Positions 6,728 through 14,240 of a stretch of 29,891 bases of DNA are shown here, piece after piece; position 1 is the first letter of the stretch, and every line of letters begins with the position of its first letter. This DNA comes from a virus: the IMG/VR virus record IMGVR_UViG_3300042516_003703, positions 1 through 29,891 of that record; one strand, 5' to 3'. Made by a program: the position numbers and the translations under genes. The notes beneath the pieces are model-generated. The model saw only the letters and a list, made by a program, of their open reading frames with translations. It was not told the DNA's origin and ran no database searches.

Positions 6728-6785
6728 TAGCTTAAGCTAGGGTCGTATCACCCCGATATGGGGTGGTATTACCCCAATGTGGGGT
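6728..6785. promoter_or_regulatory. Three consecutive palindromes spanning the terL start codon
   Basis: 6728-6739 is the perfect 12-bp palindrome TAGCTTAAGCTA. 6750-6764 is ACCCC-GATAT-GGGGT and 6771-6785 is ACCCC-AATGT-GGGGT, two copies of the same hairpin exactly 21 bp apart (two helical turns). The terL ATG (6777-6779) is in the loop of the last one and no Shine-Dalgarno is visible. They could be operator sites, a packaging (pac/cos) recognition site for the small terminase, or mRNA hairpins limiting TerL synthesis. Confidence 0.6.
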
Positions 6786-8321
6786 TATTTGATCTCCGTG
6801 GCGGGTACTTCTCTATATTCTGTATATCGACGCACAGCACGCGCTGCTGCAAAGCAACAAGTTGTAAAAAAAACAACAGACATTGACGTTGAACGGGCGC
6901 GGGTGGATTTTGCTTATTTCTGCGATGTGGTCGGGGACAAGCCACCAGCCACTCACCATAAGGAATGGCACCGCTACCTCTGTACTGGCAAAGATACTGA
7001 ATGCTTAGTCGGCATCGGTGGACCAAATATCGACATCTTGGCTCCACGTGGATCGGCAAAATCTACCATTTTGGGTTTATACACCGCGTGGGCAGTTGGC
7101 ATCCACGCTTTGCATAAAAAACCATTAAAGATTCTATATATTTCATACACAGTTGACGTTGCCCGCCCTAAGAGCGCAGCCATTAAACGAATAATCGAGG
7201 AAAGCAAGGCTTACAAAGAAATCTTTCCAACCGTAAAAATTGCTAAAGGTATTAATTCCAACGAATATTGGAGCATTGATTGGAAGTTTGCTGGGATTAA
7301 GTCGACTGGTGAGGAAGAATTTACAGTCTGCTGTGCCGGTCTAAAAGGCGCGGTGACTTCTAAGCGTAGCCACCTATGCATCATTGATGACGCTATTAAG
7401 AGTGCGGACGATATTAAAAACAGGGACATCCGTGTCGCCATGGAAGATAACTGGAACTCTGTTATCGTCCCGACCATGTTTGAAGGTGGTCGTGCTATCT
7501 GCTTAGGTACTAGATTTCGTCACGACGACATCCATAATTCAACTTTCACGCCAGCCAATGACTGGGTGCAAATTGTTCAGTCTGCCATCACTATAAATGA
7601 TCAAGGAGATGAGATCTCTTACTGGCCTGAAATGTGGTCTTTGGAATATCTACAGGATCGTAGACGCCAAGCTCCAATTGCTTTTAGCTTTCAATATCAA
7701 AATCATATTGTTCAGACCAGTGAGCTGTCACTCTCACCTGACCTAATTGTTAAAGGGGCAATTGCTACCCAGTTTGATTCTCTTGGTATTGGGGTTGACC
7801 TCTCCGCCGGTGTCAGGGAACGAAACGACTACACCGTCTTTGTCATGGGTGGTCGTGTCGGGGATAAAATCCACGTTATTGACTGCAAGCGCCTTCGCAT
7901 CATGGGCAATCTGGAAAAACTAGAAGCCATGATGGAGATGATGGAAGAATGGGGTGTTGTCCACAAAGATAAAAATCAATATTTCCCTACAGGCAGCAAC
8001 ATTGACGTTTGGTCAGAGGCGGTAGCCTATCAAGCTTCCTTGGAGGCAGACTTTAAGCGAATCTGTTTAGGTGATCATGGGTTGTACAACGTGAATTGGC
8101 ACGCAGTCAAAGGTTTTCGCGGGGATAAGGTTGCACGTTTCCGTGGCATTATGGGCCTGTTTGAACAGCGTAAAATTATCTTCAACAAATTCAGAAGGTT
8201 TGGTCCGTTAACCGATGAGATTGTTAACTTTGGTGTTAGCTCCCACGACGACTGCGTTGACGCCTTAGTATGGCTCTGTAATGGGTTGATGACCAGAGGA
8301 AAACTGGAGTTGGAGTACTAA
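6777..8321 (+). CDS. terL: Large terminase subunit (TerL), ATPase and nuclease
   Basis: This is the phage DNA-packaging motor. The Walker A-type motif APRGSAKST is at residues 89-97, the Walker B motif LCIIDD ends at D204/D205, and GTRFRHDD (about 242-249) fits the coupling/motif III region. The C-terminal RNase H-like nuclease shows GIGVDLSAG with D341 and SHDDCVDAL with D491, D492 and D495. At 514 aa it has the usual length. The start ATG sits in a hairpin loop without a Shine-Dalgarno; no in-frame upstream alternative exists back to the TAG at 6738. The residues needed for both activities appear present, so it should be functional. Confidence 0.93.
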   Translation: MWGYLISVAGTSLYSVYRRTARAAAKQQVVKKTTDIDVERARVDFAYFCDVVGDKPPATHHKEWHRYLCTGKDTECLVGIGGPNIDILAPRGSAKSTILGLYTAWAVGIHALHKKPLKILYISYTVDVARPKSAAIKRIIEESKAYKEIFPTVKIAKGINSNEYWSIDWKFAGIKSTGEEEFTVCCAGLKGAVTSKRSHLCIIDDAIKSADDIKNRDIRVAMEDNWNSVIVPTMFEGGRAICLGTRFRHDDIHNSTFTPANDWVQIVQSAITINDQGDEISYWPEMWSLEYLQDRRRQAPIAFSFQYQNHIVQTSELSLSPDLIVKGAIATQFDSLGIGVDLSAGVRERNDYTVFVMGGRVGDKIHVIDCKRLRIMGNLEKLEAMMEMMEEWGVVHKDKNQYFPTGSNIDVWSEAVAYQASLEADFKRICLGDHGLYNVNWHAVKGFRGDKVARFRGIMGLFEQRKIIFNKFRRFGPLTDEIVNFGVSSHDDCVDALVWLCNGLMTRGKLELEY

Positions 8322-8564: not shown

Positions 8565-10844
8565 ATGAGCGATAGTAGCAGTAAATCCGCCCTAGACGCT
8601 ATCCTCAAAGCGGTGGTAACCCGCGATGGTACAGGGGAGGCAGACACCATGCTGGTGAATGCACACCTGTCCCAAATGAAGATGTTTGGGATCCGCCAGG
8701 GGGTGGAGTTCTATCCTGAGCAGGATAATTTCGGCACGCAACGTTTCGACTTTATCCAGCAAGTAATTAAGTTCAACAAGCTAGACGCTAGGCTTGATTC
8801 CATCTGGGATCGTTTTCTTTCTTACGGGAAGGGTCTTTTTTACATTCGACCTACCAAGAAAACTTATCGTCTTTATTGGTTTGACAAGGACTCCTATCGA
8901 ACGTATTACAGTCCAGAGGGGGACTTAGAGGAGGTCATTATCATCTATCCGTATAAGGTTAAATCCACCCGAGGTTTTCAGGGTGTAGGCCTTTCCACGG
9001 ATAAGCGCTACATGCGTCTTCGTATTACTGCCACTGAGATCGAAGAGTATCACAGCGAACAGGAAATTACGTTTGACATGCCAACCATGGAGTTTGGCGT
9101 TTTTGACAAAAAGACGGTTGTCAACACGATGGAGTTTATTCCTTGTGTTGAAGTCTTTAACAATCCAGATGCCTTTGGCACCGATGGGGCCGGGGAATTT
9201 GAATGGATGGCCAACCAGATTCTGGCGCACGATGAGATGGTCAAGAACATCAGGGCTAACCTGTCGTTCTTTGGTAATCCAACCTTACTTTCGTCTCGCC
9301 CCAAGCAAGATATTATCGAGAAGGCGGATGGTGATGTTGTACAGCGTCCCAGTATTTCTAGCCAGTCTGGGTTCCAATCAGAGTTTTCTCTTTCCAGCTC
9401 GACGTATAAGCAAGATAACGTAACTCGTCAGCCACCTGGTTATATTGGTAAGCCAGGAACAGGCATGCGCGTGCCACGTGTGATTGCTAACCTGGAGCCA
9501 ACTGATCGTGTTGGTTTTATTACTCCAAATGCAGTAAGCACAGACCAGGCCCGATACTCGGAACAACTGCGCAGTGAAATCCGGCTTGCATTGGGTGGTA
9601 TTGACGACCTCAGTATTACCAATGTAACAGCTACGGAAATTAAATCGGCGTATGGACGAGTAAGTGCAACTGCAAAGAAAAAATGTTTGCAACTTTATAC
9701 CTATGGTATTTGCAAATGTTTTGAATTGATGGTTTTTCAGGAGGAGCAGATCTTCCGCAAGACACTTGCTTACGCATCTGGCATTAAGTATCCCGATCCT
9801 CCTGAAGATCTTGAGGATCCCGCCCAGCAAGCTAAATACGAAAAGGCTAAGGCTACTTACGAAAAGAAATTACAAAAGGCGATTTCTACAGCACTTGAGA
9901 CAAAAACTATTCCTGATGGTGTCTTGGGATTGGCACCAGATGGGGACAGAACTGTCTGCTGGCGTTGGATGGGTCCTGTTTATGAAGACACTGCACAAGA
10001 CAAACTTAATCAATCTATTTTTACTCGCAACCTTCAAGAGTTAGGTGTTGATAGCATTGAAGCACTGAAGTATTTATTCCCTTCGAAAACGGATGATGAA
10101 ATCGCGGGCATGCTCTCCGGTTTCCCATTCCGAATGGTAGGGGAAGTACAGAGGGCCTACTCCGCATTTATTGATCTCGTAAATCAAGAGATGCGGACAC
10201 CACATCCGCAGCAACCAAATCTCCCAATGGCTGCGGATCCGAGACTAGATCTCACCCCCTTCCTTTACCGAACTCTCGAAAGCCTACAAAAAGAGGTAAC
10301 CTATGCAGGCCGATACCGTAATGCCGACCCAATCGGCACCCCAAGTATCCCAGACCCAGCCGATCAGCTACGCGGCTCCCGTGACCCAGCAGACGGCGGC
10401 TCAGGCCCCGGCAGTTTCAACAACTTCCCAATGGGTGGCTCCTTACCAGCAGATGGCGGCCCCCGCCCCTCAAATGCAGGCCCAGATGGGGGTCCCCAGC
10501 TACCAGTCCAGCCCTACGCCGTCTTACCCCCAGGGGTACCAGGCACCCCCACAAGCGGCCCCACAAGCGGAGAATCCCTACAAGGAGGCGTTCAACCGGG
10601 TAGTGGGACTCCTGAGCTCGCCAGTTCAATTCCCATTCCAGGGTCAACAGTCGGCGCAGAGCCAAGCAAGCGTTCCGGCCAACTACAGTTCCCAGGTGGC
10701 TCCCCAATACAGCAACGCGGGGATGCCGACCTCTATGCCTGGGATCAACAGCAACCAGGCCTACTCCAACGGTTATTCCCAAACTTCTCAGGAAATCAGC
10801 CCCCAGCAACTCCTGGCAAACGGGGTAAGCGAAACAAGTCTTGA
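8565..10844 (+). CDS. Portal protein (759 aa)
   Basis: It forms the dodecameric channel for DNA entry and exit at one capsid vertex. The call rests on position directly after terL, length, and a portal-like core: residues about 60-125 alternate aromatic and charged positions (FIQQVIKFNKLDARLDSIWD, GKGLFYIRPTKKTYRLYWFD), followed by a region with repeated contacts and a long helical part around 330-470. Residues 580-759 are a Gly/Pro/Ser-rich tail unlike the core and are encoded in the same DNA as the start of the next gene in another frame. That tail is probably disordered and may have arisen by loss of an older stop. Confidence 0.8.
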   Translation: MSDSSSKSALDAILKAVVTRDGTGEADTMLVNAHLSQMKMFGIRQGVEFYPEQDNFGTQRFDFIQQVIKFNKLDARLDSIWDRFLSYGKGLFYIRPTKKTYRLYWFDKDSYRTYYSPEGDLEEVIIIYPYKVKSTRGFQGVGLSTDKRYMRLRITATEIEEYHSEQEITFDMPTMEFGVFDKKTVVNTMEFIPCVEVFNNPDAFGTDGAGEFEWMANQILAHDEMVKNIRANLSFFGNPTLLSSRPKQDIIEKADGDVVQRPSISSQSGFQSEFSLSSSTYKQDNVTRQPPGYIGKPGTGMRVPRVIANLEPTDRVGFITPNAVSTDQARYSEQLRSEIRLALGGIDDLSITNVTATEIKSAYGRVSATAKKKCLQLYTYGICKCFELMVFQEEQIFRKTLAYASGIKYPDPPEDLEDPAQQAKYEKAKATYEKKLQKAISTALETKTIPDGVLGLAPDGDRTVCWRWMGPVYEDTAQDKLNQSIFTRNLQELGVDSIEALKYLFPSKTDDEIAGMLSGFPFRMVGEVQRAYSAFIDLVNQEMRTPHPQQPNLPMAADPRLDLTPFLYRTLESLQKEVTYAGRYRNADPIGTPSIPDPADQLRGSRDPADGGSGPGSFNNFPMGGSLPADGGPRPSNAGPDGGPQLPVQPYAVLPPGVPGTPTSGPTSGESLQGGVQPGSGTPELASSIPIPGSTVGAEPSKRSGQLQFPGGSPIQQRGDADLYAWDQQQPGLLQRLFPNFSGNQPPATPGKRGKRNKS

Positions 10845-11325
10845 AGTTATTGATCATTTTGGCCCGGATGTTCCGGCCATCCTGAACAATTACTCTTGCC
10901 AGCTGGAGGATGCTCTGATTACAACCAACAGTCAGTTGATTGAGGCTGTTAATCTGCTGCAGGAAATGTCTGCTGAGCACAAAGCTTATGAGACCATCCT
11001 GACTGACCCGGATGTACTGGCAGACTACACTTGCGAGTTCTTCGGTGAAAACGGTCCTTATCCAATCCCCGATGAGGAGATTGGATATGTTCGTGCTCCT
11101 CAGGCTGTTGGTCAACAGTTCCAGCGCCCTGCTGCCGCACCTCAGCAGTTTGAACGCCCTCAAATGCCTGTTCCTCCGGCTCCTCAAGCCCAAGGAAATC
11201 CCGGCGATTTCTGGAACAGCTTTGGTTCCTTAGCTGAGCGTGACCCTGCTAATGCTTGGCGTTATCTGAATCAAGCTTCGACAAACCCTGAAGTGTTCCG
11301 CCAAAAACTCCTGGTAATGGAGTGA
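10303..11325 (+). CDS. Probable scaffold or capsid-assembly protein, overlapping portal (340 aa)
   Basis: The start ATG has AGAGGT (10292-10297) 5 nt upstream, a good ribosome-binding site inside the portal gene. Residues 1-180 are Q/P/A/S-rich and disordered and overlap the portal C-terminus in a different frame for 542 nt. Residues about 165-260 form an ordered, acidic helical region (VSETSLEVIDHFGPDVPAIL and following), then a second P/Q-rich linker and a short helical C-terminus (LAERDPANAWRYLNQASTNP). The position between portal and major capsid and the acidic helical, Q/P-rich make-up suit a scaffold. No protease motif is seen. Confidence 0.75.
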   Translation: MQADTVMPTQSAPQVSQTQPISYAAPVTQQTAAQAPAVSTTSQWVAPYQQMAAPAPQMQAQMGVPSYQSSPTPSYPQGYQAPPQAAPQAENPYKEAFNRVVGLLSSPVQFPFQGQQSAQSQASVPANYSSQVAPQYSNAGMPTSMPGINSNQAYSNGYSQTSQEISPQQLLANGVSETSLEVIDHFGPDVPAILNNYSCQLEDALITTNSQLIEAVNLLQEMSAEHKAYETILTDPDVLADYTCEFFGENGPYPIPDEEIGYVRAPQAVGQQFQRPAAAPQQFERPQMPVPPAPQAQGNPGDFWNSFGSLAERDPANAWRYLNQASTNPEVFRQKLLVME

Positions 11326-11378: not shown

Positions 11379-11408
11379 AAGGGAAAGGCGAAAGCTTTTC
11401 CCTTTTTT
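11379..11408 (+). terminator. Strong Rho-independent terminator after the portal/scaffold unit
   Basis: AAGGGAAAGGC (11379-11389), GAAA tetraloop, GCTTTTCCCTT (11394-11404) form an 11-bp stem with one G-T wobble, closed by a GNRA loop and followed by a run of T (11403-11408). This should end or strongly reduce transcription before the capsid region, so capsid genes need their own promoters. Confidence 0.9.
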
Positions 11409-12273: not shown

Positions 12274-13416
12274 ATGTTTATTGATAACGATTTCCCGAAG
12301 CTGCTGGGCGCGGAGCTGTACCGTCCCCACCCAGCTTATATTGTGGAAATGGCAGCTGAGCCTGTCGTTGTCCACGACTTCACTAAACAGCCCGGCCAAA
12401 CTGTTCAGTTAGACCGGTACCGTTTCTGGGGCAACCCTGGGACCAAGACTCAGCGTGAGCGCACCCAAGACCAAACGATTGGTACGGCCAACAGCCGCTC
12501 CATCGTTAAGGACAAGGTGCTTGTGTCTCTGCGTGAGTACACCGGCCCTGCTGACCCGAACAACTCCAACCTCCCGAGCACCTTTAAGATTGCTCGTGAG
12601 ACTCTGATGACCGCTCAGCGCCTGCTGCTGGATACCGGGAACCTTAACATGTTCCACCAGTCCATCGGTTCGCTGACTCTGCTGGACGACTATCGTCGCT
12701 GGCGCGATCGTGTCTTCCTCGACGAATTCTCGAAGTCCGAAGCTCGTGGTGCCGCCTCTGACAGCCAAGGTGGTTACTACTACCCCAACGGCAAGACCCG
12801 TAGCAGCTCCACCGCTCTGAACTCCTACAGCGCTACCGAATATGCTTCGGAGCGTTATAAGTTCAACGTGAAGACCGACCTTCTGGAAGTTGTCAAGCAA
12901 CTCCGGAAGCGTAACGTTCCTGTGTTCCAAGACGGTTACTATCGTTGTATTGCTGATCCCTCCTTCATGAAGGATCTGCGTGCTGACCAAGGTTTCCGTG
13001 AAGTGGCACGCTATCCTGGCATGGGCCAAGGCAACCCCCTGATGGGCGCCATGGGTCCTAACCAAGCCATTTATGGTGGTGGCCAGTACGGCCAAGCTCA
13101 GTTCGTTGCCGGCGAGCCGGTGATGCCTTCTGGCTTCGTTTTTGAAGGTGTACGTTTCTTCGAATCCACCAACTTTGCTGATAAGTCCATCACCGTCGAC
13201 ATTGGTGACGGCGCTGGCGCAGTCAGCCACACAACCCCTCCCGCGCTCTTCTTCGGTCCTCAGGCCGTTGGCGTGGGCATCGGTGGTCCTAACGCTCAGG
13301 TTCTGATCAACAACAACGACGACTTCAGCCGCTTTATCATTCTGATTTGGCAACTGTACGCCGGTTTTGCAAACCTGAACAAGGATTTCATCACCGCTGC
13401 TTTCACCATCGTTTGA
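12274..13416 (+). CDS. Major capsid protein (380 aa)
   Basis: This is the main shell protein. The N-terminal half reads like the N4 gp56-type major capsid group: RYRFWGNPGT, then QTIGTANSRSIVKDKV and SLREYTGPADP (about residues 50-95), and a long helical segment. The C-terminal part carries beta-rich stretches and ends NKDFITAAFTIV. Support also comes from its position after portal and scaffold, its own extended -10 promoter, and strongly C-ended codons typical of a very highly expressed gene. No decoration domain is fused. The HK97 fold is expected but cannot be shown here. Confidence 0.85.
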   Translation: MFIDNDFPKLLGAELYRPHPAYIVEMAAEPVVVHDFTKQPGQTVQLDRYRFWGNPGTKTQRERTQDQTIGTANSRSIVKDKVLVSLREYTGPADPNNSNLPSTFKIARETLMTAQRLLLDTGNLNMFHQSIGSLTLLDDYRRWRDRVFLDEFSKSEARGAASDSQGGYYYPNGKTRSSSTALNSYSATEYASERYKFNVKTDLLEVVKQLRKRNVPVFQDGYYRCIADPSFMKDLRADQGFREVARYPGMGQGNPLMGAMGPNQAIYGGGQYGQAQFVAGEPVMPSGFVFEGVRFFESTNFADKSITVDIGDGAGAVSHTTPPALFFGPQAVGVGIGGPNAQVLINNNDDFSRFIILIWQLYAGFANLNKDFITAAFTIV

Positions 13417-13430
13417 GGAGGTAACTAACA

Positions 13431-14240
13431 ATGGCTACTTACAAGTCAAACGCTGGCGCTATCCTGCAGCCCGGTAATCAAATCAACCGTCTCTCCGGCT
13501 TTAACGTCGAGGGTGTGTATGGTTGGCCTGGTGTTGAAGCTTTCGAACTGATCGGTTATGTGAAGATCAGTAACCTGGCAGCTGATAAGGCTTCCTTCAA
13601 GAGTTTTGACATTACTGTCCCTTCCCCAGATCGTCGTCCTGACGACCGTGTACGGGACAACCGCACTTCTCTGGTTGTAAACGCCAGCAGTGCTCGTCCT
13701 GCTTACGTGATCGGTGCTTCGATTGCCGTTGCGCAAGATTACACTGTTTCCGGCTTCCCTGCTGACCCTGTCACTGCCAATATCGGTGGTACTTCTACCG
13801 AACTTCTGGTGCTTGGTCCTAACAACGGTGGTGTGCCTTTTGGTATTCCTTCGTCCCAGGCGAACGGTCTGGCTGCTGCTACTTCCAGCATCACTGCTGC
13901 AAGCTCCCTGTTTGCTCAGGGCCTGAGTGGTACCACCGCTGCCGGTCTGCCCTTCCCCACCGTTGTCACTACGGCTGGTATCACTGCGGCTAACTTTGCC
14001 GACAGCCTGATGTATAAGGTGACCGCTGACACCACCTTCCGGGTGTTTAACGTCAACGCCATTACCGATACCTCGGTGAACGGCGATGGTATCTTCATCA
14101 GCCAAGCTGATTCGGATGCTGGCCGTGCCGGTTACCTGGTGTGCCGCGTGAACTACATCCGTCCCCAAACCGCTGTTGCCTGGCGCGATATTGAGGACAA
14201 GATTGACTTCGCCTCCCAAGTGGGTGGCGACGACATCTGA
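13431..14240 (+). CDS. Abundant second head protein, possible decoration or minor capsid (269 aa)
   Basis: It has the best ribosome-binding site in the window (GAGGAGGT, 13416-13423) and the same C-ended codon preference as the major capsid gene, which points to high expression. The product is beta-rich: an N-terminal part (AFELIGYVKISNLAADKASF, then an Asp/Arg-rich loop), a Ser/Ala/Gly/Thr-rich middle (about 110-185), and a C-terminal part with YKVTADTTFRVF and YLVCRVNYIRP. Co-transcription 14 nt behind the major capsid gene suggests a decoration, cement or minor capsid protein. No named family is recognised. Confidence 0.75.
   Translation: MATYKSNAGAILQPGNQINRLSGFNVEGVYGWPGVEAFELIGYVKISNLAADKASFKSFDITVPSPDRRPDDRVRDNRTSLVVNASSARPAYVIGASIAVAQDYTVSGFPADPVTANIGGTSTELLVLGPNNGGVPFGIPSSQANGLAAATSSITAASSLFAQGLSGTTAAGLPFPTVVTTAGITAANFADSLMYKVTADTTFRVFNVNAITDTSVNGDGIFISQADSDAGRAGYLVCRVNYIRPQTAVAWRDIEDKIDFASQVGGDDI

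Follow-up and report, generated by a model that had tools for sequence, protein, structure and literature searches.

A long out-of-frame overlap, selected in both frames, between the portal gene and a probable scaffold gene in relatives of Synechococcus phage S-EIV1

The stretch of DNA analysed here (the window, 29,891 nt) is a 29.9-kb virus record from IMG/VR (IMGVR_UViG_3300042516_003703), kin of Synechococcus phage S-EIV1, whose relatives form a widespread group of cyanobacterial viruses. Its head module runs from the gene of the terminase large subunit (TerL) through a small ORF, the portal gene, a downstream ORF (dORF), a terminator-like hairpin and two small ORFs to the major capsid gene (Table 1). 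The last quarter of the portal gene doubles as the first half of dORF, the next head-module gene, shifted by one base (+1 frame), and the two ORFs have 542 nt in common; both ORFs and the overlap lie where the preliminary description of this DNA had placed them. The hairpin directly 3' of dORF is strong and sets portal and dORF apart, as a unit, from the genes on the capsid side. Long open frames also run on the minus strand opposite the capsid gene and its downstream neighbour (12409-13431, 340 aa; 13446-14219, 257 aa), likely as an effect of composition.

Table 1. Features of the head module in the window
Feature	Position	Strand	Evidence or remarks
Terminase large subunit (TerL)	6777..8321	+	phrog_38 E=3e-76, Pfam Terminase_6C
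Portal gene, 759 aa	8565..10844	+	core, residues 1-579 (8565-10301); C-terminal tail, residues 580-759
Conserved nucleotide element GTTGATAGCATTGAAGCACTGAA	10047..10069	+	in portal core
SD-like stretch AAAGAGGT	10290..10297	+	portal codons 576-578, upstream of dORF ATG; putative function
dORF, 340 aa, probable scaffold	10303..11325	+	first 180 residues within portal gene, +1 frame
Dual-coding overlap, 542 nt	10303..10844	+	both frames open and under purifying selection
Intrinsic-terminator-like hairpin after dORF	11379..11404	+	11 pairs, then T run
Major capsid protein	12274..13416	+	phrog_1357 E=1e-17

Several lines of evidence support the product of 8565-10844 as the portal protein: i) the ORF matched phrog_20475 at E=8e-206, a family labelled only as virion structural protein; ii) it gave a weak profile match to the portal family phrog_104 (E=0.008); iii) the gene follows TerL in the head module, with one small ORF between; iv) in Foldseek the 24 best matches of its AlphaFold model, which is of low confidence (mean pLDDT 43), were portal or portal-tail entries (E down to 2e-5, TM below 0.3). 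A PDB sequence search with the portal protein found nothing. The tail of ~180 residues is Gly/Pro/Ser-rich, carries conserved residues and a basic C-terminus, and is mostly coil in the low-confidence model.

The overlap is marked in the window by its start and by its composition. AGAGGT (10292-10297) stands 5 nt ahead of the dORF ATG, and GC is 63.3% at 10381-10440 against 38.3% at 10021-10080, so that the spacing and GC figures of the preliminary description were reproduced on recomputation. By part, GC is 61.1% in the overlap, 46.3% in the portal core and 50.7% in the unique part of dORF. When the amino acids of the window's portal tail were resampled synonymously with the codon usage of the core, the +1 frame was fully open in 45% of the resamplings; openness in one genome alone thus proves little. 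Over 16 representatives resampled in this way, the median chance of an open +1 frame given the portal tail was ~7%, and that of an open portal frame given the downstream protein ~0%.

Among 50,697 phage records S-EIV1 was the sole match, and IMG/VR yielded hundreds of relatives. The whole overlap was measured in 204 sequences, counting the window and S-EIV1; they fall into ~87 clusters when grouped at 95% identity across the overlap, and they comprise clade A near the window (n = 63), clade B near S-EIV1 (n = 80) and a third set, clade C (n = 61). The relatives were the 80 closest loci per viral-contig search, a sampling by which remote relatives may be missed. For clades A and C the queries were the portal core alone and the first 109 residues of the core alone; as these queries lack the tail, the searches were unable to select for it.

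Across the overlap both frames were open in all 204 sequences of the three clades, while the third frame was open in none. Overlap length ranged from 506 to 644 nt and was 2 mod 3 in every sequence, and all of them shared one ATG as the start of dORF, preceded within the portal gene by an SD-like stretch that reads AAAGGAGATG in clades B and C and AAAGAGGT in most of clade A. The preliminary description had asked where the portal stop lies in homologues: none of the 204 sequences had a portal stop near 10300, and none had the extra codons interrupted by stops. Among the matches listed there was no relative that lacked the overlap. A scan of genome contigs gave four loci, two of them usable, and both had the overlap. 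An extra locus outside the 204 (L073), tried as an exception, was rejected as one, since its frameshift sits in the portal core and its overlap (527 nt) is unbroken; another (L165) was left out for breaks in the core. Four S-EIV1-like contigs (L163, L164, L165 and L166) were binned in bacterial MAGs, including Bacteroidetes and Puniceicoccaceae, which may reflect binning error or a host signal.

Codon-position variability, which had been proposed as a check, was lower at the wobble positions of both frames within the overlap than outside it. In clade A, pairwise differences at codon positions 1, 2 and 3 were 0.10, 0.05 and 0.46 in the portal core but 0.21, 0.09 and 0.18 for the portal frame of the overlap, the portal wobble differences falling from 0.46 to 0.18. 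The wobble of the dORF frame was the most variable position of the overlap, yet it varied about half as much as in the unique part of dORF (0.22 vs 0.47). We then classed each possible change by its effect in both frames, over independent pairs of neighbouring sequences, with a sham portal frame placed over the unique part of dORF and a sham +1 frame placed over the portal core as controls. For clades A, B and C respectively, portal-frame NN/SN was 0.38, 0.53 and 0.42 against 1.15, 1.36 and 1.41 for the sham, and dORF-frame NN/NS was 0.23, 0.28 and 0.20 against 0.64, 0.70 and 0.80 for the sham; such ratios are biased (sham values of 0.64-1.41 rather than 1) and carry meaning solely by contrast with the controls. 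As the ratios lay far below the sham in every clade, purifying selection acts on both frames throughout the three clades, and more strictly on the dORF frame. Doubly silent changes occurred at about the rate of ordinary synonymous ones, which means that a low mutation rate does not explain the pattern, and the ordering of the classes was unchanged with transitions alone. Moreover, the two products have conserved residues over the same nucleotides at 44-55% overall identity. A chance open frame was ruled out by the conservation (204/204 and L073) and by the selection measured against the sham frames. Thus the long out-of-frame overlap of a portal tail and a scaffold-like N-terminus, first proposed from the window, is genuine, whereas the accompanying suggestion of free drift in one of the frames is contradicted. 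Both frames of the overlap are almost certainly functional.

What the downstream protein does is suggested by its position and anatomy rather than by homology. Its gene sits between the portal and major capsid genes. The first half is Gln/Ala/Ser/Pro-rich, and in an AlphaFold2 model of low confidence residues 1-94 are disordered and helices span residues 190-234, 236-247, 300-313, 315-325 and 329-338; a conserved short helix, NPYKEAFNRVVGLL (residues 92-105), lies within the mostly disordered arm. The unique half is acidic, and the short, helical C-terminus ends in KL[LFM]VME in aligned members. Known scaffolds have a similar gene order and a similar anatomy of disordered arm, helices and acidic part. 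We therefore regard dORF as probably a scaffold. Both frames could also be functional with dORF encoding another head-module protein, e.g. an internal virion or head-completion protein, a possibility that we hold to be real if smaller. It draws on the two further small ORFs between dORF and the capsid gene and on the result of the homology searches, in which dORF had no Pfam, PHROG or PDB match and no fold match (the PDB sequence search gave insignificant matches only). Scaffolds diverge fast, however, so that the want of a match is weak evidence against a scaffold, and the order portal, dORF, capsid speaks against another kind of protein, as does the combination of disordered arm, helical middle, short helical C-terminus and acidic unique half.

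On the order of origin, we lean slightly towards a new dORF N-terminus overprinted on an older portal tail, a weak preference that comes from codon usage and from the stop-codon simulations. Nearness in codon usage to the other genes of a genome is a criterion that has been applied to the age of overlaps (PMC8227390). By this measure the portal tail was nearer to the phage's other genes than the N-terminal half of dORF, both in the window (-0.027 vs -0.096) and in S-EIV1 (-0.046 vs -0.126), a contrast of about two standard errors that is confounded with composition. The reverse history, in which dORF is older and the portal gene lost its stop and ran into it while both frames are functional, is somewhat less plausible to us. 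It would fit the greater conservation of the dORF frame in the overlap, and the matches listed included no relative whose portal tail is free-standing; against it stand, both weakly, the closer codon usage of the portal tail and the resamplings, in which a portal frame of 180 codons was almost never open given the downstream protein. A search for an overlap-free outgroup gave a single further phage terminase match, MW202426, which is too remote (21% identity) to polarize the change.

Readings in which a single frame is used fare far worse. That dORF alone is used, with the portal ending at about residue 579 and its tail untranslated or dispensable, would suit the stronger constraint on the dORF frame and the low-complexity, mostly coil prediction for the tail, but it is highly improbable given that no sequence has a stop near 10300, that portal-frame NN/SN is 0.38-0.53 against 1.15-1.41 for the sham, that the tail has conserved residues and a basic C-terminus, and that, with the downstream protein fixed, chance hardly ever leaves the portal frame open. 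Equally hard to credit is use of the portal frame alone, with dORF starting later, as in the S-EIV1 record (192 residues later), and the open +1 frame a by-product of a tail rich in Gly/Pro/Ser: the 45% of open resamplings in the window are offset by the median of ~7% over representatives, dORF-frame NN/NS is 0.20-0.28 against 0.64-0.80 for the sham, the ATG and SD-like stretch are present in 204/204 sequences, and the later Met of S-EIV1 is recognised in just 114 of 189 complete dORFs.

It is thus very probable, judging from the sequences, that both genes are real, that the 542 nt are translated in both frames and that dORF starts at 10303. Ribosomes would read the portal gene from 8565 to 10844, and separate initiation in the +1 frame, directed to 10303 by the SD-like stretch in portal codons, would yield the 340-aa protein, so that one message may give two products. 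The 340-aa product would be a head-assembly protein, most likely a scaffold. In known portals the C-terminal regions point to the interior, and for this reason we would place both low-complexity arms inside the procapsid, i.e., the portal tail of ~180 Gly/Pro/Ser-rich residues with a basic patch at its end and the Gln/Ala/Ser/Pro-rich arm of dORF. Selection keeps both readings, the dORF frame more strictly, and the length of the overlap shifts by whole codons only. A bolder proposal, which we consider rather unlikely, is that the portal tail and the scaffold arm encoded by the same DNA act together in the procapsid, e.g. in recruiting the portal into the shell, and that expression of the scaffold is under cis signals within the portal gene.

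A conserved nucleotide element lies in the portal core, ~250 nt upstream of the dORF start. In portal codons 495-531 (10047-10160) synonymous variation was nearly absent from clade A, dipped sharply in clade B and fell mildly in clade C; synonymous heterozygosity there was ~0.1-0.15 vs 0.5 expected, with the reduction chiefly at 10047-10069. The sequence of this part, GTTGATAGCATTGAAGCACTGAA, is common to the three clade consensuses, save that clade C differs at one or two wobble bases, and the window and the scanned S-EIV1 sequence each have a single copy. Three candidates were rejected: an RNA structure, as there was no covariation among 14 predicted pairs; a sigma-70 consensus promoter, as there was no match; and another ORF, as all other frames have stops in most sequences. 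The element may be an internal cis signal for dORF.

S-EIV1 (KJ410740; AHV82224 and AHV82225) is of the same lineage, with a portal core 58% identical to that of the window, and it has the same overlap (554 nt) with the same start. Its record annotates AHV82225 from an internal Met, and the overlap is thus unrecorded: over KJ410740 59287-60264 (L081 13739-14716), AHV82225 misses 192 N-terminal residues that lie in the portal gene. The capsid region of the record is apparently misannotated as well. The S-EIV1 capsid gene (record 60859-61989, +) is 70% identical to that of the window, and KJ410740 60784-62010 (L081 15236-16462) has it covered by a minus-strand hypothetical protein, AHV82227, and a truncated plus-strand one, AHV82228.

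In phage lambda the start of the scaffold Nu3 lies inside the upstream head gene C, as the start of the probable scaffold does here, but the nested protein is in the same frame rather than +1. Myoviridae sp. ctsTn925 (MW202426) has a similar order of TerL, portal, small ORF, 302-aa ORF and capsid, yet its TerL is only 21% identical and its portal gene overlaps the next gene by 4 nt. Out-of-frame overlaps of the phiX174 type (PMC8227390) are alike in that one DNA encodes two proteins in shifted frames, each of them under selection; the present case differs in belonging to a tailed dsDNA phage (the S-EIV1 genome is 79 kb), in being terminal rather than internal and in joining two head-module genes. 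Among viruses at large, long out-of-frame overlaps are a known feature (PMC8227390, PMC4875738), and no prior report of a portal/scaffold overlap, or of an overlap in the S-EIV1 lineage, was found in the literature searched, the S-EIV1 genome paper aside.

The S-EIV1 lineage of tailed dsDNA phages therefore carries an old, lineage-wide, long out-of-frame overlap between a pair of head-module genes, in which selection is measurable on both frames. The S-EIV1 record truncates the downstream protein, and other records of the lineage probably do so too. As an isolate of S-EIV1 exists, both the order of origin of the two frames and the reason for keeping the overlap are testable.
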